A stretch of 64,000 bases of DNA, from assembly GCA_001600635.1 (NCBI GenBank), contig BCKL01000029.1, positions 231,657-295,656 of the forward strand. The letters are read 5' to 3'. Under the pieces are notes generated by a model. The model was given only the letters and a program-made list of their open reading frames with translations, did not search any database and was not told where the DNA came from. This DNA is from Leucosporidium creatinivorum. Taxonomy: Eukaryota > Basidiomycota > Microbotryomycetes > Leucosporidiales > Leucosporidiaceae. This document shows positions 21,022 to 46,993 of this stretch, in pieces. Position 1 is the first letter of the stretch; each line of letters opens with the position of its first letter. A program made the translations under genes and the position numbers.

Positions 21022-22729
21022 CTACACACTGCAAGCCATGAGATACTGCTGCACGTAGTCCGCGTCCGCGGTGATGGGAACACGCCCAGAGAAGGACTCA
21101 TCCGCGAGCTTGCACGCTTCGCTGCACCAGCGACCCCAGTCGCATCGTGTGCAGGTGATGGTCGCGGTCGAGTCGGCGCGTTGACACCTGAGTGAGAGAA
21201 GGCGAGAGGTCAGCTCGCACGTGACGGCAGCAAACGCAAAAGCGACCTACCAGCGGCAGCCCTCGCTCGCCTTCTCCCTCAACCGCTGCTTCGTTCCCCT
21301 CTCCCTCGTCTTCTCCGCCTCGTACCACTCATCTCTGCTTATAGCCCAAAGCTCCTGCGTTATGTGCTCGTTTGTTGGAGAGTACCTTGACGTCTTCTCC
21401 TTGAAGTTGGCGCCGAACCGCTTGGCGATCCGAACTGAAGCCTCGTTCCCTTCCCGAGGGTCGATGAGGACAGAGGGGAGACGGAGGATGTCAAAGCAGT
21501 ACCGTAGGACAGTCTCGACAGCTTCGGTCATTATGCCTTGGCCCCAGAAGGAGGGATGGATCTCATAGACTGCGCGAGGAGGGAGAGGTCAGCCGAGATT
21601 CGAGCGTGGACAGTGCCGAGAGGCCTGAGAGCTCTTACAGATGGTCCCATGCATGCCCCAGGCGCTCAGTTGCTTCAATGAAGGGTATCGGAAGCGCTGT
21701 CCTGCCTTCGGTCCTTGCACGAAAGCGAGGTAAGCGGGATCCGTAGACGGCTGCTCGGGGCTCTCGATTTGAATCGCTGTAGGACCGTCAAGAGGGTCAG
21801 CGTGGAGCCGGCGGGGCTCGCAGTGACGTTCAACGACTCACCAATGTTGCCAATGTACCCCTCCGTGCTCATCGCCTTCTTCGCCTCACACTTCCTCGCC
21901 TTGACCTTCGGCGCGCCCGCCTCGTCTGTTGCGATCGTAATGGCGAAAACATAGCGGGCGCGAGAAGTGCGGTCGGGCGACTTCTCGGGTCGAGAACTAG
22001 AGAAGGCAAGGGGAAAGTTGTCGAGGAAGTAGCCCAGGGTCAAAAAGTCGGTCCAGCTTCGCTCGGGGTTGGCGCCGTACAGCTGCGAGAGAGTGGTAAG
22101 CTTCCTGGTGGATACTACAAGGAAAGGCAACGCTATACCTGGGTTCTATTGACCAGGCGCTCACGCTTGATGGCGTACACTCGCGAACGGTCTGGAAAAG
22201 AGCGAGTCAGTCTTGCGCCGAGCGAATGGAAGCTGCCAAAGCTCTCACCAGAGAGGCTGACAGGTCGCAGCACAAGGCGGGCAGTAGTCAGCGTGACCTT
22301 GGATCCCTCGGTTAGGAAGAGGTCGTAAGTCGACTGCGAGGAAGACGTCAGCGCCTTCCCTTACTGCTCCGGCTCGGCGCTGGCAAAGCTCACCTTCCCC
22401 AGATCCTTCAGCTTGCCAGAGGTCGACGGGAGCTGTGGCGGTGAGACTCTCGGCTGTCCGTGGTCCAGCTTGTGCTCGGCGTAGTTGTCCCTGAAGCATT
22501 TGCTGAGTGAGAGAGGTGGTCAGTAAAAGTCTCTGCCGAGGTCTCGCTAGAGCGAAGGTCGAGGCGCGTACGGAGTGCAGAAGTATACCTCCTCTCCTTC
22601 CCTCAGGCAGATGGGGCAGGCGTTGCATTTTTGTGCTGTAGAGCACGAGTTCGGTGAGCGATGGCAGGTTCAAGGGGAGAGTTGCTGCTCACCTGGCTGA
22701 TCACAGTTGTCGCAGATAAGCTCGTCCAT
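21022..22729 (-). CDS. MetAP1-type zinc finger-GNAT acetyltransferase-zinc finger fusion
   Basis: Starts M-D-E-L-I-C-D-N-C-D-Q-P. Exon 2 gives C-P-I-C-L-R-E-G, Y-F-C-T-P-K-C-F-R-D-N-Y and H-K-L-D-H, the spacing of the zf-C6H2 finger at the N-terminus of methionine aminopeptidase 1. The middle is a RimJ-like GNAT domain: T-A-R-L-V-L-R-P-V near 22,270, then W-G-Q-G-I-M-T-E-A (acetyl-CoA loop) near 21,530, then N-E-A-S-V-R-I-A-K-R-F-G. The last exon holds a second, MYND-like finger: C-R-W-C, C-T-R-C, W-C-S-E-A-C. Eight or nine exons join in frame to TAG 21,024-21,022. RimJ-type enzymes acetylate protein N-termini or small amines, and the MetAP1 finger docks on ribosomes, so a ribosome-associated N-acetyltransferase is a reasonable but untested guess. 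Confidence 0.8.
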
Positions 22730-32327: not shown

Positions 32328-34911
32328 TTACGCAGCCGAAGCCTTCAACGCCGCGTAGACATCATCCAGACCCTCCACCTTCTTGACCTTGACCGACTTC
32401 GCCTCGCCCTCCTCGGTCCTGCCCTTCTTACTCGGCCTCGCCGCCTTGCCACCAAAGATCTCATCCACCTCATCAGCCGGCCTCTCCCTCGTCTTCTTCT
32501 CCTCGACCGGCGCAGCAGCCTGCGGCGCACCGGGCATCCTCAACCCCTTCTGCTCGGCCATCTGCCTCGCCATCTTCGCCTTCCACTCCTCCCTCCTCCT
32601 CATGAACAGCGGAAGCTCCACCTTCCTTGCGAAGAAGTGACCAAACTGCGACGACTGCAGGAAGTTGCCCTGCTCCGTCAACGAAGCGGCAATCTTGTCC
32701 TTGAGGTAGACGTCGGCGGTGGCCCAGCAGCGCTCGACCACGCGAGAGCCGATCCGGTCGTCGGCGATGGTGTGGTAGTTGCCGATGAGGGAGAGGAGGA
32801 AACGGCGGATCTCGCGAGGTGGGGTTGTAGGGGAGGAGAGGAGGGAGTCGAGTACGCGGGAGGAGGTGGCGTCGCGGGTGAGGGGGAGGATGCCGTCAAA
32901 GCCGAGCGAGTTGATGCTGTAGCGACGCAGGGTCAGCGTGTGCTCAGATCTCGAAAGGAACCGGAGAGCTCACCTGTCGAGGACAACCTGCTGGTGAGGA
33001 GCATGCAGCTTGAGCCAAGTCTGGAGGAGGATGGAGCCTTGGGTCGAGGGCTGCGCCGTAACGTGCGAAGGGAGCTTCTTCCAGTACTATAGAGCGTAGA
33101 GAGTCAGCAACGTCACTATGAGCGAGTGAGAAGCAACGCACGTCGAGGCGGTTGAGTGAAAGCACACATGGAGCGACGAGCTTGCGGTTCTCGGGGTCGT
33201 TGAGACCGAAAGTGTCGACGATGATCTGTAGAAAAGCCAGGTCAGCTCGAAGCACGAGATGTACAACACGCTGCATCGACTCACCTCACTGATCTCCTTC
33301 TCGCACACACTCAGCTTGGCAGCCTGCTCCAGCAAGCTCCTAAACACTCCCGTCCTCGAGTTATCGATCCACTCGCCCCTCCTCTCCGTCGCAATCTTGC
33401 CCACCTCCTCAATCGTCTGCTTGAGCTCCTCCTCGTCCAGCCTGCTGATCCCGACGGCGACGACGAAATTGGCCACGGCGTTACCGGCCAGTCGATGGAG
33501 CTTGGAGACGAAGAACGATTCCCAGATGGCGGAGAAGATGGGCTTGGACGAGCGGGTGAGGAGCGTCTCGAAGGTAGGTGAAGAGGCCGGGTGTCGAAGT
33601 AGTCCAGCGAGGTATTCCTCCCTCAACTCTGAGCGTTCCTCCGTCTTGCTCTCGGCGTTCTTGACCTCCTCGACCAACCCACAGAGCACTCGGTCGGCCC
33701 ATCCTCCCTTCATCCATCCACCAGGAGCCACCGCCTCCATCTCAATCATCACGCGCACAGCAGGACCAGCCACATCGTCCATCGCGGCCCTCCTGATGCC
33801 CTCGCCGAGAGGTCCTCCATCGTCGACGGCGTTCAGGCTCTGCCACATGCTCGTCAACGCATCGTTGAACTCGGTGGGTATGTTCCTCTTAGTGACGACC
33901 TCCTTCTCCTTGCCCTTGCCGGAGTGATCATCATCGAGGAGGAAGGACTTCATCTTTCCTTGTCCCTTGCGGAAGTTGAGCGAACGCTTCGAACGCTCGG
34001 CGCCGGATTGACCTTCAGCGGTAGGGGCGGTTCCAGCAAAGAGGAGGAGCAGGATGCGGAGCGTGTGCGAGCCGAAGGGGTCGTAGAGGAGGGTGGGGAG
34101 GTGGGGGAGGAGCTCGGTGAGGGCGGAGAGGACGAGGGAGGTCATGGTGGGGAGCTCGACGGCGTCGGAGGAGGAAGAGACGGGAGGGGAAGCGATGATG
34201 CCGCGGGTCTGTTGTGCACAGGGAGAAGGGTTAGCTCGGCGCCGAGTCAGAAGAGAGAGAGAGAGAGCCCACCTCGCGGTCGATGGTCTCTCCAGCGAGA
34301 GTGAAGAGGGTTTGGAGGACGTGACTAGCACTTCGGTGCTTGACGAGCTTCTCGTAGTTGCCGATGAAGCGGTCGGCGAGCACTCGGCGAGCAAAGTCGT
34401 CCATGGCGTAGAGGAGGCGCTCGAGGATGACGCTGGTCTCTCCATCACCAGCAAGCGGGATCTCATGTCCCGACAAGCTCTCCAACGCACTCCTCAACAA
34501 GAGCGGTCGGTCGTCCTCCTCCTGCTCCTCCTCCTCGCCGTCCTCGCCGATCTTGGTGTAGCTGCCTTTGCCCTGTCCCAGACCTTCCAGCTCTTGAATC
34601 TTCTCGGCGATTTCACGGAAGTACGCCTTGGTATCGGGATCAGGCTCAGGCAGAGCGTCGGGGTCCACTGGGGCATCGGGGCGAGAGTCGGCGGTCGCGC
34701 TGAGCTGGTTCCAAGGCATCTCGCTCTTCTTAGCACGTTGACGCTTGGCGGCAGCATCGGCAGCACGAGCTTCAGCTTCTTCCTTCTCGCGCTTCATCTG
34801 TAGCATTGTAGACGGTCAGCGGCGGCCAGCTAAAGTGCCAGCTTGAAAGAGACGCACCTTCTTCTCCTCCTTCTTTGCGTCGGCTCCACGGCGCTGGCGG
34901 GGACGAGGCAT
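32328..34911 (-). CDS. NOP9: Nucleolar Pumilio-repeat protein Nop9
   Basis: Nop9 is a nucleolar PUF-like protein that binds 20S pre-rRNA and protects the site D region during 40S maturation. The start M-P-R-P-R-Q-R-R-G-A-D is basic. Pumilio-like helices follow: E-K-L-V-K-H-R-S-A-S-H-V-L-Q-T-L near 34,340, Y-D-P-F-G-S-H-T-L-R-I-L-L-L near 34,060, H-R-L-A-G-N-A-V-A-N-F-V-V near 33,470, T-R-D-A-T-S-S-R-V-L-D near 32,860 and G-S-R-V-V-E-R-C-W near 32,745. The end is Lys-rich (K-V-K-K-V-E-G-L-D-D-V). Introns at about 34,858-34,801, 34,271-34,211, 33,284-33,227, 33,144-33,088 and 32,973-32,916. Open to TAA at 32,330-32,328. Confidence 0.9.
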
Positions 34912-35261: not shown

Positions 35262-38200
35262 ATGGCAGCCCATCAGCCCATCTTCGCCTACAAGCAGGCA
35301 ACCTCACTCCCGACACCCCTGCTCGACTACCTCGCTCGGTCGCCCTTACCGACGCTCGTTCTCCCCTTCTCGATCGACTCGCAGGACAACAATCGCTACT
35401 CTGTGCTCGGCGCTCAGCCTCTCATCCTCAATGTACCCCTCCGCCAGCTCACCAGAGGCAAATGCTTGCACGAATGCCTCAGTGAAGAAGGCTTCTCGGC
35501 GCTGAGTGTGTGGGTCGGAGAAGGGCCGGCAGAGGATCGTTCCACCGTCGCCAACGATATCTCGCTAGACCTACGCTTGGGGGAAGAAGGGAGCAAAAGG
35601 ATACAGAGCATTCGATGGCGCAAGACCTACGAGACAGAGAACGGTGTACCCTTCGTTGCCCTCGTCGCTTTGACATTCCCGCCAACTCGCTCGTCCATCC
35701 TTTCCTCTCTTTCGACTGGGAGGAATCCTCTTGTCATCCCAGTGGTGGAGGAGAGGTCTCCCGAGGAGCGGATCGCCGAGCTGGAGCTGCTGTACGATCG
35801 CTCGCAGGTCGGACTTGCGCGAATGGACATCGAGGTGAACCGTCCTTCTTCAGCTGCTGTTGTTGGCCAGTAACGCTAACACAGGCATCCCACAGGGTCG
35901 TGTCATCTCCGTCAACTCGGCGTGGTGGAACATTACTCGCTACGACCGAAGCCAGCCCATCATGGAGTAAGCTCGGCGATGGCTTTCATCCCTTTGCCTT
36001 CCCACAACTAACGTCGCGCTTTGCACAGCTGGGCCAGAGTCATTCACCCGGAGGACTACGAGCACCTCTTCCACGCCTTTCAACTCGCGCGCTCCTCCCT
36101 CAACCCGATGGCCTCCTTCCGCTTCCGTCTCCGAACGGGCGAAGTCCTACTCGGGCACGTCACGCCCAACAGCCCGAACGTCGAATTAGCAACAGGGTGG
36201 ATTATGGACATCGCGGATATCACAACGCAGGTCAAGGCGGAGGAGGCTGTGGGGCTGTTGGCGGTGGAGAGGGAGAGAGCGGTGCAGACGGCTAAGCTGT
36301 TGGAGGAGGTGGAGGGGAGGAGGAAGGATGCTGAGGATCAGAAGAGGCATCAGGAATTGCTGATTGATTGCACTTCGCATGAGATCAGGTGAGTGATGAG
36401 ATCTGGAAGCTCGACGAACGCTCGGCGCAGAGTTCGGCGTTAATCGCTTGCTGACCTATTCGGCGTTGTTCCCTCCTCTCTCTTCTTTACACTCCAGGAA
36501 TCCCATCTCGGCCATTCTGCAAAACGCCGAGCTCACGCATGCCTCCCTCACTCGCCTTCGGTCGACACTACGTAGCTTCGAAGCCCGTGGGGTGCTTCCT
36601 CCCGAGCTGCTCGAGCAGCTGGCCTCCATCGACGATGATGTGGAGGCGGTTGAGTCAATCGGAGACTGTGCAAGAGCGCAGGAGATCATTGCGAACGACA
36701 TCTTGGTGAGTACCTGCTCGTTGGGTGAAGGGAAACGCTGACCTCGGCGTTCGGATTTTGCAGGGTCTCGCTCAAATCCAGCTCGGCACCTACTCTATCA
36801 CACCCGTTCAGTTTAATCTACGGCATACGCTTCGCACTATCATGCGCATGGTGAGCAGCTGATTGATTGGGGCTTCTCCGAGCATCGAGCTCACCTTGCT
36901 CCCCTTGCGCAGTTCTCGACCGAATGCCGAGCAAAGGGCATCGAGCTCTCCCTTGCTTTCGGACCCCATCTTGAGGGTATCACTGGGCCAGTCAACATCC
37001 TCGCAGATCCGGTAAGCTCGCCTGGCCCCTTCTTCTCTCTGAGTTCCGCGCTTCTCAACTGCTCGCTCGGCGCTCATACTTTTTCTGACAGGTCCGCTTC
37101 TCACAAATCATCACCAATCTTCTGACCAACGCCATTCGCTTCACCGCGTCATCACCATCACCTATATGCAAAGTCACTCTGTCATTGGACATCTCGCCTC
37201 ATCCTCCCCTTCCATCGCCGAACGACGAGATCCTTCCTCCACCGCCGAACGCGGACAGCTCGCATCTCGGCACTGGAGCGATATATCTCTACTTCGCAGT
37301 GGTGAGCACTCCCTATGACCATAGCCACTCACCTGAGCTTTCTCTTGCCCTCGCCTCAAGTTCGGCGCTAACTCTGCTCCCCTGCCCTCCTCGCTTCACA
37401 GACCGACACCGGCCCCGGTATGACTCCCTCCCAATCCCAACTCGTCTTCGAGCGCTTCATGCAAGCCTCCCCCATCACACACGTGACCAACGGCGGCTCC
37501 GGCCTCGGTCTTTGGGTCGCTCGCAACCTCTGCGAGCTGCACGATGGGCGGATAGAGGTTCGGTCCCAGCTGGGGAAAGGCAGTGTGTTTAGGGGATATG
37601 TGGCAGCGGCGATGGGGATGGGAGAGGAGGAACCGACGCAGTTGCCCAGTCCGGCAGGATCGGGAGAGGCGAGTGAGTTGCCTGTGGAGTTGCTGCCGCC
37701 GCTGGGGAGGAGGTTGAGGGTGTTGGTGGTGGATGATAATCAGGTGAGTAGTATACTGCATCTTGAACAGTCAGGGAGTGAGCTAACCACGCCTTCTCAC
37801 GCCAAACAGATTAACCGCACGATCCTTCGGCGACAGCTGCACGGCGTTGGGCATGAGGTTGAGGAGGCGAGGGATGGTCGGGAAGCGATAAAAAAGCTTT
37901 CTGCTGCATGTGTAGGAGGACTAGCTTACGACTGCTGCTTGATGGATGTCGAGGTGGGTTCCGTCCTTCTCCCTCTGCGCCGAGCCGAGCTGACCTTCTC
38001 CTTCGCCGAGCAGATGCCTGTACTAGATGGCGTGTCGGCTACGCGGCAGTGGAGGGAGCTAGAATCTCAGCAACCCGACTCGAGCTATCGGCTGAGGATA
38101 GTAGGGTGTACTGGTGAGCATCTCGGCGCAGTCAGGAGAAGCTCGGCGCTGACCTTTGCTCTCCGCAGGCAACGCACGAGAGGGCCAGATACAAACGGCA

Positions 38201-38346
38201 TTGGGAAGTGGTATGGATGCGTTGTGTACGAAGCCGTACAAGTGAGTCGACTTCCGGTTCTGCACCTTTGACCACGCTTCGCTGACCCTCGGTCGTCGAC
38301 TCGTCGCAGGCTCGCTGATTTGATTCAGAAGTTGGCGCCGGTGTGA
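35262..38346 (+). CDS. PAS-domain hybrid histidine kinase/response regulator
   Basis: Fungal two-component phosphorelay sensor. Start M-A-A-H-Q-P-I-F-A-Y. A PAS-like region spans the intron near 35,835-35,895 (G-R-V-I-S-V-N-S-A-W-W then H-P-E-D-Y), followed by a coiled-coil linker. The dimerisation box is C-T-S-H-E-I-R-N-P-I near 36,375-36,510 (intron after R), with the phosphoacceptor His present. The ATPase has N-L-L-T-N-A-I-R near 37,120, D-T-G-P-G-M near 37,405 and G-G-S-G-L-G-L near 37,495. The receiver has V-V-D-D-N-Q near 37,730, the phosphoacceptor in L-M-D-V-E-M-P near 37,945-38,020 (split by an intron), and the Lys in T-K-P-Y-K. About ten introns. No membrane segment, so a cytosolic sensor; the signal is unknown. 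Confidence 0.9.
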
Positions 38347-43324: not shown

Positions 43325-46300
43325 CTAAGTCGACTTGGTGGCTCGGTAGACCATTGGGAATGTCTGCAAGCCGTCAAAGAGAAGGTCAGCGCTCTGCTCG
43401 CCAGCCCCGAAGCAAGCTCGGCGATCCCGACCACCTCGACCGAGCAAACTCACTTCCGGCCATCCCTCTCCCACACTAGTAGTTTGATCCCACTGCACGA
43501 ACCCCATTTTATCATACATCGGTTTTCCCACTGTTCACCGTCAACGCCCTCTGATCAGCTCTCATTTTGGAGGGAGCGGGAAAGGGCAAGCGAGCAGAGG
43601 CTCACACTCGGTCGAATCGAGATACAAGTCCAACCCCTGCTCCTCCTGCTCTTGACAGAAGTCGATGCATGCTTGAGTGAGGGCGCGGCCGGCGCCCGTG
43701 CGTTGCAGGGAGGGGGAGATGGCGAGTTGGTGGAGCACTGCGAGCGAGGGCGCGAGGGAGGAGGAGGAGGGGGTCAGCTCGGCGCTCGTACCGGCCGTTA
43801 CGGCGAGCAGAGGGAGAGGGAGGAGAGAGGAGAAGAGAGAGAGAGAGAGAGAGTTGAAGACGTACTAACGAACCGACCCTCAATCCCCTCGCTCGCCGCG
43901 TGAAGAGCGTCAAAGATCCTCGGCCCCTTCTCCTTATCCGTTCCTTCGGGCAATTCGAGCTTCTCCTCCTCCTCCTCCTCCTCCTCGGCGCCTGCTCCGG
44001 GGTGCACCTCCCAATGCGCAAACCCTACGACCTGCTCACCCCTCCTCGCCACCAGCGTCCAGTGCTTCCTCCTTCCCCCCTCGGCGGCTTCGTTGGCCAA
44101 CCACTGCTTGAACCGGACCTCGTTCCAAGCGTCGTAAGAAGCAGAAGGGCACGAATGGAACATGGCTTGATAGATTTTTGTGGGTGCGAATGCCTGGCGG
44201 AAGAGAGCGGCGAGGTGGGGGACTTCGCCGAGGGAGGCGGGGGTGAGCTCGAGCCCGAGGGGGAGGGGGGAGATGGTGCTGGAGGGAGTGAGGGGGTGGG
44301 GGAGAGACATGGGGTATGACTGTGTTCCGGAGAGAGAGGAGGGAGTGTTAGTGAGTGAGGGAAGGAAGGAGGGAGAGGAAGAAGACGGACCTCGACGCTC
44401 CCGCCCCAGGCTGAGAGGTTCGGCGCCCATTGCTTGAAGCCCATCGAGTCGTAGAGGGGTCGACCGGCTACTCAAACGAAGCAAAGCGCGGCAAGGTCAG
44501 CGTGCGGGTCGGAAGAGAAGAAGGAGATGAAACCGCCGAGGACTCAAGCTTACGAGGCGTAGCGTCTAGATATAGGTCCAGCCCCTTCCCCTGGGTCAAC
44601 TCGATCCCCCACTTGAGTAACGCCCTCCCCGCGCCGGTACGCTGGTATGAAGGGTCTGTAGCTAGTTGATGAAGCACTGCGTTGGCGGCGCAGCGGCTCG
44701 TCAGCTTGGTTCGGCGCACCGCACGGACGAGAGAAGAGAAGGAGAGGGGTGGGAGAAGGGGGAAGCATGAGAGTAAATTGGAAGAGAGAAGCTCGAGAGG
44801 AGAGAGAGAAAAGGAGCAGAACGAAGGGCGAAGCTCGAGAGATGAGGGAAAGATGAAGATGAAAGAAGAAACTCACTGACATACCTCCCCCTCACCCTCC
44901 CCTCACTCTCGCCCAACACCTTATACAAATACCGCATCTTCTCCTCATCCGCTCCCTCGGGCAACGGCGGCATCTCCCCCTCTGCCTCTCCCTCTTCCTC
45001 CCCGTGCTCAGCGACGACGTAATGCGCAAACCCGAGCACCACGCCTCCTCGTTTAGCTACTACAGTATGATGCTTCCCTTGGTGTTGAGGAGCGAGCCAG
45101 GAAAGCATTCGAGCCTCGTTCCAGGCTTGATAATCTGGCTCAACTCGGCGCGGTCAGCTTCCGTTCTGTTCCCCCTCTCCACCCAGAGGAGGACGACTCA
45201 CCAGCGTCCTGTACATTAGGGAAGATCATCAATTTGTGCGGTGCCCCGTGGAACGCTCTCCGGTGGAGGCAGGCCATGGAAGGCACGTCGGCTCGCGAGG
45301 CGGGGAGGATGAGGAGCGGGTGCAGGACGAGGGGTTGGTCCGCGAAGGAGGAGTGGTTGGGGCTGCCACCGCCGCTGGTGATGGGTGTACTACAGGGAGT
45401 GAAGCCGAGGGAGAGGTAGAGAGGGAGGGCTTCTGCTTCGTTCAAACGAGGAGGGGGGTCAGCGCGGGAGGGAGAGAGGGAGAGGCAGAGGGAGAAGGAC
45501 GCACCGAGCCCGCCTTCCAAATAGGCTGGCAGACTGTCCTCCTGCGCGCGTGCAATGCCCCAGCGGATGAGAGATGTGCCGGCGCCGGAACGTTGATGGA
45601 GGGGAGAAGTCGCGAGGAAGTGGAGGTCTGCTCATTCTTCGGCGGTCAGCTGGGGAGGAGGGAGAGGGAAGGGAGGACCACGCACGCCAGTAACGACCCG
45701 AGATTGAAGAGGTGTAGGCCAGCATATCCTTATTGAACTGCTCAGCGACCTGGACGTTCGTTCCCTCGGGCCACTCCTCCTTGCCCTTCCCCTCCAGCTC
45801 CGAGTAGTCTGCCTCCTCAGCACCAGGACCCTCCTTCTCCTCCCAAAGCGCATAGCCCAGGACCTCCTCCCCCCTCCTCGCCGCCAGCAGATGGTCCTTC
45901 CCACTCGCGCCCTCGTTCTCTAACCACCCGCGAGCCTTGGCGAGAAACCAAGCGTCAAACGCCGAGGGCGAGGACTGACCCCAGAGGGCTTGGAACCAGG
46001 CGGTGGAGGCGAAGGCGGTGCGGTGGATGGTCGCTATAGTCGACAGATGGGAGGGGAGAGCAGGCGTGAGGAGAAGGGGAGGACGATGCATCGGGTAGAG
46101 CTGGGAGAGAAGGGCCGAGTCGAGTCAGCGAGGCGAGAGCGCAAACGCCACGCCGAGAGAAGGACGAAGGACGAAGGAGGGGCGCAGCGCACAATCATTG
46201 ACCCGTCTGGACCTCCTACGATGGGCTCTCGGAAGGGTTTGAAGCCTGCTTTCTCGTACAGCCCTACTCCAACTGCCAACAACCTCACCCACGAAGTCAG

Positions 46301-46993
46301 CGAGAGCCCGAGTCAAAAGTCCAAGTCGAGTTCAAAACTCTGAGCTCAACTCACCATCCGAAGCCTCGAGATAAGTATCCAGCCCCTCTTTATCCGCTTG
46401 TGTACAGCCCCAACGGAGGAGAGCCATGCCTGCGCCGGTGCGTTGGTGCGTTGGGGAGATGACTAGGATTTCGAGGTCTGCTCGGCGTGTCGGCGTGGCG
46501 TTGGCGTTGAGGGGGCGCCGCGGCGAGAGAGGTCAGCTCGGAGGGACGGAGGGAGGGAGGGAGGAAAGGGGAGAACAGGAAACGAACGATAGTGGGGGTT
46601 CCTGATCCCGAGGTCTAGGGAGCCGAAGAACGAGTCTGCGAGCTCATAGTCGGCGCCGAGAGGGAAGCGTTTCCTGATCCTCTCCTTCCTCTGCTCCTCG
46701 GTCTCTTTCTCCTCCTCCTCCTTCTTCTTCTCCTCCTCTTTCCACTCCTTGGGCAGTCCCCACAGGGCCATCCCAACAATTTCACCCCCCTTCTCCGCCT
46801 TACATACCGCTTGCTCGGGGTCTTGTATAGCTTTCAAAAAACGAGCAGAGGAGGATGCAAGCCCGTCGGAGGGAAGGACGCGGCCGAAGATGAGTTGTTG
46901 GATGCGAGAGCCGAGGAAGGCGGCACGTTGGATTTGGGCGAGGGAGGGAACGTCGGAGGGGAGGGCGGGGGAGATGGAGAGTGCTGCTGCCAT
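43325..46993 (-). CDS. Protein with four tandem GNAT acetyltransferase domains
   Basis: One start (M-A-A-A-L-S-I-S-P, 46,993) and one stop (TAG 43,327-43,325), with open frame through all inferred joins. Each domain has its own acetyl-CoA loop: Q-R-T-G-A-G-M-A-L near 46,440, Q-R-S-G-A-G-T-S-L near 45,590, Q-R-T-G-A-G-R-A-L near 44,640 and Q-R-T-G-A-G-R-A-L near 43,700. Each has the late Y-x3-G-F strand: L-Y-E-K-A-G-F, L-Y-L-S-L-G-F, L-Y-D-S-M-G-F and M-Y-D-K-M-G-F. Where one domain ends the next begins without a new start or a stop: L-Y-P-M-H-R-P leads into domain 2, and S-Y-P-M-S-L-P leads into domain 4, both equivalent to the terminal T-F-P-M-V-Y-R of domain 4. Between domains 2 and 3 the join lies inside one exon (45,440-45,200). 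About 900 residues in all. Substrate unknown. Intron positions repeat from domain to domain, as expected for tandem duplication. Confidence 0.75.
43834..43854 (-). repeat. (GA)n/(CT)n microsatellite in tetra-GNAT intron
   Basis: Dinucleotide run just downstream of the donor of the intron before the fourth Q-R-T-G-A-G block; the sense strand reads (CT)n. Confidence 0.85.

Follow-up and report, generated by a model that had tools for sequence, protein, structure and literature searches.

Does the DNA between positions 43325 and 46993 of a Leucosporidium creatinivorum contig encode one protein with four GNAT acetyltransferase domains and, if so, how would such a protein have arisen and how would it work? 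GNAT is a very common enzyme type. The locus was analysed in a window of 64,000 nucleotides (contig BCKL01000029.1, positions 231,657 to 295,656), the whole stretch of DNA under study, and the genome searched comprised 27.7 Mb in 63 contigs. It gave 38 matches to Fungal_trans (PF04082), a family matched by 0 of 14 prokaryote controls, which marks the genome as fungal. The best explanation as a whole, to which we assign a probability of roughly 0.6, is an A-B-B-B protein of old A-B origin, acting as an amine acetyltransferase at multiple sites and packed as pseudo-dimers.

The locus, which runs on the minus strand from position 46993 down to 43325, was spliced by hand into a single gene of 13 exons with one ATG (46993-46991) and one stop codon (43327-43325). 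Its 12 introns are 58 to 200 nt long, every one is GT-AG, and their removal leaves a single 849-aa frame without internal stop. The coordinates given in the first-pass annotation are exact, and its description of one start, one stop and no stop at the joins agrees with this frame. The splice sites were picked on the basis of frame, CTRAC motifs and domain-domain likeness. In 11 of the 12 introns CTRAC was found within the final 65 nt, a count that, like the intron agreement described below, is partly built in by the choice of sites. Of the exonic AGs with 65 nt of their own exon before them, none of 157 was preceded by the motif; for all AGs of the window the counts were 367/5022 on one strand and 282/5334 on the other (5-7%). 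Counting the pair that was chosen, each intron offers 1 to 9 GT-AG pairs that keep the frame and lie no more than 15 nt from the chosen sites; the alternatives would alter a few residues around the junction. Judged from the genomic sequence, the gene almost certainly encodes a single four-domain protein.

The frame is also open upstream of the chosen ATG. An in-frame ATG is present at 47122-47120 on the minus strand, 129 bases upstream as counted by hand, and a start there would add a hydrophobic leader. The start at 46993 was preferred because the paralogues on contigs 19 and 21, described below, start at the matching place.

43325..46993, minus strand: entire coding region of the spliced model, 13 exons, 849 aa
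46077..46993, minus strand: GNAT domain 1 (A type), residues 1-211, exons 1-3 and the start of exon 4
45317..46076, minus strand: GNAT domain 2 (B type), residues 212-422, without intron c
44254..45316, minus strand: GNAT domain 3 (B type), residues 423-638; takes in the 18-residue linker that leads to domain 4 and carries the extra intron x
43328..44253, minus strand: GNAT domain 4 (B type), residues 639-849
46428..46445, minus strand: P-loop QRTGAG of domain 1
45578..45595, minus strand: P-loop QRSGAG of domain 2
44627..44644, minus strand: P-loop QRTGAG of domain 3
43688..43705, minus strand: P-loop QRTGAG of domain 4

Cut at matching points, the 849 residues give four GNAT domains of 211, 211, 216 and 211 residues. 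As the first-pass annotation had expected of a profile search, each of the four scored above the PF00583 cut-off of 20.7 bits (40.6, 32.2, 43.7 and 34.1 bits). The weakest match is domain 2, which also falls below the cut-offs of PF13508 and PF13673. QR[TS]GAG loops at residues 147, 353, 561 and 779, one in each domain, match the consensus of the acetyl-CoA P-loop of GNATs, Q/R-x-x-G-x-G/A (PMC4964394). Y-x3-G-F is present at residues 182, 389, 596 and 817, again one to a domain and with the tyrosine kept. All the loops and strands that had been read from the unspliced DNA were recovered in the spliced protein. Residue 712 starts a fifth, looser resemblance to the P-loop, which is located outside motif A and was taken as chance. 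An exon-by-exon search of the genome with PF00583 gave 14 matches, and the four-domain gene is absent from that list because introns cut each domain. Membership in MshD or another NCBIfam equivalog family was rejected, none having reached its own cut-off; on the MshD equivalog model (TIGR03448) the best score was 21.5 bits against a cut-off of 163.1, which sets the protein apart from MshD.

The assignment of the joins depends on the place of the YPM motif. It had been put at domain starts, but three observations place it at the domain end. In domain 4 the last intron is followed by TFPMVYRATKST and the stop codon. YPM stands at the end of both domains of the paralogue on contig 19. In addition, the ypmvrrp stretch of a profile built from seven domains of the family aligned with the C-terminal end of puromycin N-acetyltransferase (PAC, 7k09). 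As YPM is the last strand of the domain, the recurrent intron c lies just before that last strand, and all three joins fall inside single exons (4, 6 and 10).

45686..46100, minus strand: exon 4, join 1-2, with the YPM strand of domain 1 followed by the start of domain 2
45202..45435, minus strand: exon 6, join of domains 2 and 3
43866..44319, minus strand: exon 10, join 3-4, with the YPM strand of domain 3 followed by the start of domain 4
43325..43363, minus strand: last exon, T-FPM terminal strand and stop, which shows that YPM closes the domain

The introns reported to end before L-YPM and S-YPM at two joins are there, and another intron of this kind precedes T-FPM at the C-terminus. Likewise, domains 2 and 3 do meet within one exon, but this is not the only such join, since the other two are also inside exons. 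Moving YPM to the domain end strengthens the predicted fusion. From the last conserved strand to the first of the next domain there are about 4 residues at joins 1-2 and 2-3, and the linker at join 3-4 has 18 residues. The earlier term 'tetra-domain polyprotein' is well supported by the sequence in the sense of a four-domain fusion; in its other sense, a cleaved precursor, it finds no support, joins 1-2 and 2-3 being so short.

Searches of the genome with the four-domain protein and its paralogues, in which the best candidates only were scored, revealed two further loci of the family among those. One is a two-domain gene of 422 aa (C19:547046-548692) and the other a one-domain gene of 211 aa (C21:70400-69580); marginal matches were seen on C3 (E 0.0057) and C10 (E 0.064). 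The genome thus holds a series of genes with one, two and four domains of the same family. The paralogues share introns a and b with the four-domain gene, the contig 19 gene also shares intron c, and A and B types of domain recur; they differ in having two domains and one domain, respectively, in place of four. Intron a is present in 7/7 domains in one alignment column and in phase 1, and intron b in 7/7 domains, in one or a neighbouring column, also in phase 1. Intron c occupies one column in phase 0 in 5/7 domains, being missing from domain 2 and from the contig 21 gene, and intron x occurs in domain 3 only. In the contig 21 gene, intron b (69759-69693) is apparently GC-AG, where the other genes use GT-AG.

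The domains are far from identical to one another. Identities among the four range from 32 to 46%. Domain 1 is 44% identical to the first domain of the contig 19 protein, and domains 2, 3 and 4 are 38, 44 and 39% identical to its second domain. A tree was computed from seven rows (the four domains, the two of the contig 19 protein and that of contig 21). The first unit of the contig 19 protein (A type) is joined by domain 1, and its second unit (B type) by domains 2-4; support is 93/95 for the branch between the A pair and the rest and 93/94 for the one that encloses the B rows. None of the branches attained the starred level. With no more than seven rows, shuffled labels clustered equally well in 57 of 500 cases for A and in 64 of 500 for B. 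In the best tree, domain 2 falls outside domains 3, 4 and the contig 19 B domain (87/93).

Nine groupings were examined after the tree had been seen; three were already in the tree and the six others were tested. A single clade of the four domains costs 41 log units and is rejected (p-AU 0.0001). Domain 1 with the contig 21 domain gave p-AU 0.017, and domains 2-4 held together with the contig 19 B domain excluded gave 0.044. Placing the contig 19 B domain with domain 2, 3 or 4 gave p values of 0.068, 0.19 and 0.14, respectively. By the tree and these tests, the A/B split predates the split between the four-domain gene and the contig 19 gene. Codon positions 1 and 2 were more alike than position 3 in 21/21 domain pairs. 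By NG86, dN was 0.53 to 0.73 and dS 1.4 to 2.7 in six pairs, and dN was below dS in six of the seven pairs tried, dS for domains 3 and 4 not having been obtained. Synonymous sites look saturated between domains, and dN/dS at such high dS is a sign of constraint only.

These results bear on three other accounts of the locus. Two or more tandem genes or transcripts might have been joined by reading across: the model comes from genomic sequence, and the ATG within each YPM could in principle start a shorter product. This is highly improbable and was rejected, since the three joins lie inside open exons without a stop, no space for a terminator or promoter exists between domains, and the contig 19 paralogue has the same passage from YPM to the next domain. 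A recent internal tandem duplication of one domain, giving rise to all four units, was proposed by the first-pass annotation from introns recurring at the same places, and it is still harder to credit. Genes on two further contigs have these introns as well, the clade that it predicts is the one rejected above, and the low identities and a dS of at least 1.4 where computed do not suit a recent event. An unlikely but less remote alternative is that the four-domain form is ancestral and that the contig 19 gene reached two domains by loss of B units. The position of domain 2 in the best tree and the low p-AU of the grouping that excludes the contig 19 B domain favour it; against it, the support is not starred, the rows are seven with long branches, and multiplication followed by loss is needed. 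We consider it quite likely, from the tree and its tests, that the ancestor was an A-B gene in which the B unit was multiplied. The four-domain A-B-B-B protein would then go back to an old A-B protein with two domains, like the one that contig 19 still encodes. The multiplication of B may itself predate the separation from the two-domain gene, with loss in the latter, as the p-AU of 0.044 allows.

To which enzymes are these domains related? Against the PDB, the seven-domain profile matched 40 sequences of solved structure with E values no higher than 0.01, of which the best were 2qec (HPA2-related, 9.3e-14) and 7k09 (1.6e-10). The 7k09 alignment runs through the P-loop, Y-x3-G-F and the YPM C-terminal strand. 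The general acid of PAC is very likely Tyr171 (PMC7933286). In the profile alignment that residue aligns with the tyrosine of Y-x3-G-F (an offset of 2 was worked out by hand). A general-acid tyrosine is common among GNATs, not universal. In PAC the substrate entry is formed by a helical hairpin inserted between strand 3 and strand 4 (PMC7933286); the family has a longer stretch at the presumed place of this insertion. By a strict count, the segment taken as its equivalent is rich in Glu in domains 1, 3 and 4, and in domain 2 to a lesser degree. PAC differs in being one bacterial domain, compared with four in one fungal chain, and it is missing from the single-domain and B-only searches. A single domain gave a best E of 0.0067, and with the B-only profile 3fb3 ranks first, 2qec stands at 0.00055 and 7k09 is not listed. 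The PAC/Hpa2 placement is a lead at profile level: it is weak from one domain, and the B-only profile favours other GNATs.

The relation to Hpa2 is suggested by 2qec being the profile's best PDB match. In Hpa2 the last strand is exchanged between monomers, which form a dimer of dimers with acetyl-CoA, and the enzyme acetylates histones and polyamines (PMC4964394). Unlike the four-domain chain, Hpa2 has 156 aa and assembles without covalent links. Scans for the family elsewhere yielded little. In prokaryote contigs a three-row B alignment gave 7 loci from 318 pattern matches, and these are short matches, 32-43% identical, to bacterial GNATs; in viral contigs none of 67 pattern matches proved positive.

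The gene product is probably an amine acetyltransferase in which the units are linked covalently and more than one site is functional; its activity, packing and substrate we infer. More than one domain, perhaps all, would bind acetyl-CoA, and the acetyl group would pass directly to an amine, as in PAC and Hpa2. Two or more active domains are somewhat more likely than not. Because joins 1-2 and 2-3 are very short, neighbouring domains may be packed as covalent pseudo-dimers that would exchange the last (YPM) strand, as in Hpa2 and human HisAT, and the chain would then be the covalent form of an oligomeric GNAT. Such packing, argued from linker length, stands at about even odds, and the 18-residue linker between domains 3 and 4 is at odds with a uniformly tight chain. 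As substrate, a small or flexible amine (a xenobiotic or a polyamine) is the most likely; this is the weakest step, and it could as easily fail as hold.

How many domains work is best judged beside the tandem GNATs already described. HisAT/NAT16, NMT, MshD, Eis and the C-terminal region of RmNag also have more than one GNAT domain per chain (PMC12219266, PMC4964394, PMC6456759, PMC4680927). Those proteins have two domains, usually with one active, and here there are four. Double-GNAT proteins are called rare in PMC12219266, with usually one working half, and in HisAT strands are swapped between the two halves. According to PMC4964394, the N-terminal domain of MshD binds acetyl-CoA and is thought inactive. 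In fungal RmNag, according to PMC4680927, the two GNAT domains share less than 10% identity and domain C holds acetyl-CoA without apparent activity. An intact P-loop is thus no proof of activity, by analogy with these two domains. It is conceivable, at rather less than even odds, that a single domain or pair is catalytic here and that the others are scaffold, substrate-binding or regulatory acetyl-CoA-binding units. The precedents point that way, as does domain 2, with its weakest profile match and lost intron c. Against this, the P-loop and the tyrosine are kept in all four domains with signs of constraint, and these domains are 32-46% alike, compared with less than 10% for the RmNag pair. 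More than one working site remains the reading that we prefer. Its fullest form, a covalent GNAT tetramer with four working acetyl-CoA sites, strand exchange giving an Hpa2-like dimer of dimers, and specialised A and B units, is doubtful. If true, the A and B units could serve different amines or acetylate one polyamine successively, and the protein would represent a less eroded step on the route that has been proposed to lead from a homodimer to a fused GNAT.

Other genes of the window were also noted. A serine peptidase gene of the S9 prolyl oligopeptidase family lies head-to-head with the four-domain gene, from 47692 to about 50164 on the plus strand (PF00326, 2.8e-25 and 4.8e-13 in two open frames). 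The two ATGs are about 700 bases apart, and a shared promoter region is possible. Another GNAT-like exon, at 21412-21564 on the minus strand (PF00583, 1.1e-4), was not retrieved by searches with the proteins of the four-domain family; it may be RimJ/RimL-like. A NOP9-like PUF gene is found at 33090-34493 on the minus strand (PF22493, 4.4e-65). A histidine-kinase-type ATPase domain occurs at 37372-38268 on the plus strand (PF02518, 1e-13), with a receiver-domain match under the cut-off.

Fusions of two GNAT domains are already known, and four in one fungal chain is an unusual arrangement. The phrases 'three GNAT domains' and 'four GNAT domains' did not occur in the open-licence literature searched, and databases may hold similar genes. 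The practical weight of the finding is modest, the enzyme type being so common. Tandem GNATs have been proposed to descend from a homodimeric GNAT that was duplicated and fused, with rewiring afterwards (PMC4680927, citing earlier work). Because the four domains are far more alike than those of RmNag and have kept their motifs, they are perhaps at an earlier stage of this path. The presence in one genome of genes with one, two and four domains, with shared introns and intact P-loops, makes the path from homodimer to fusion testable, and it raises the questions of whether the added units are still active and whether they are packed like the subunits of an oligomer.
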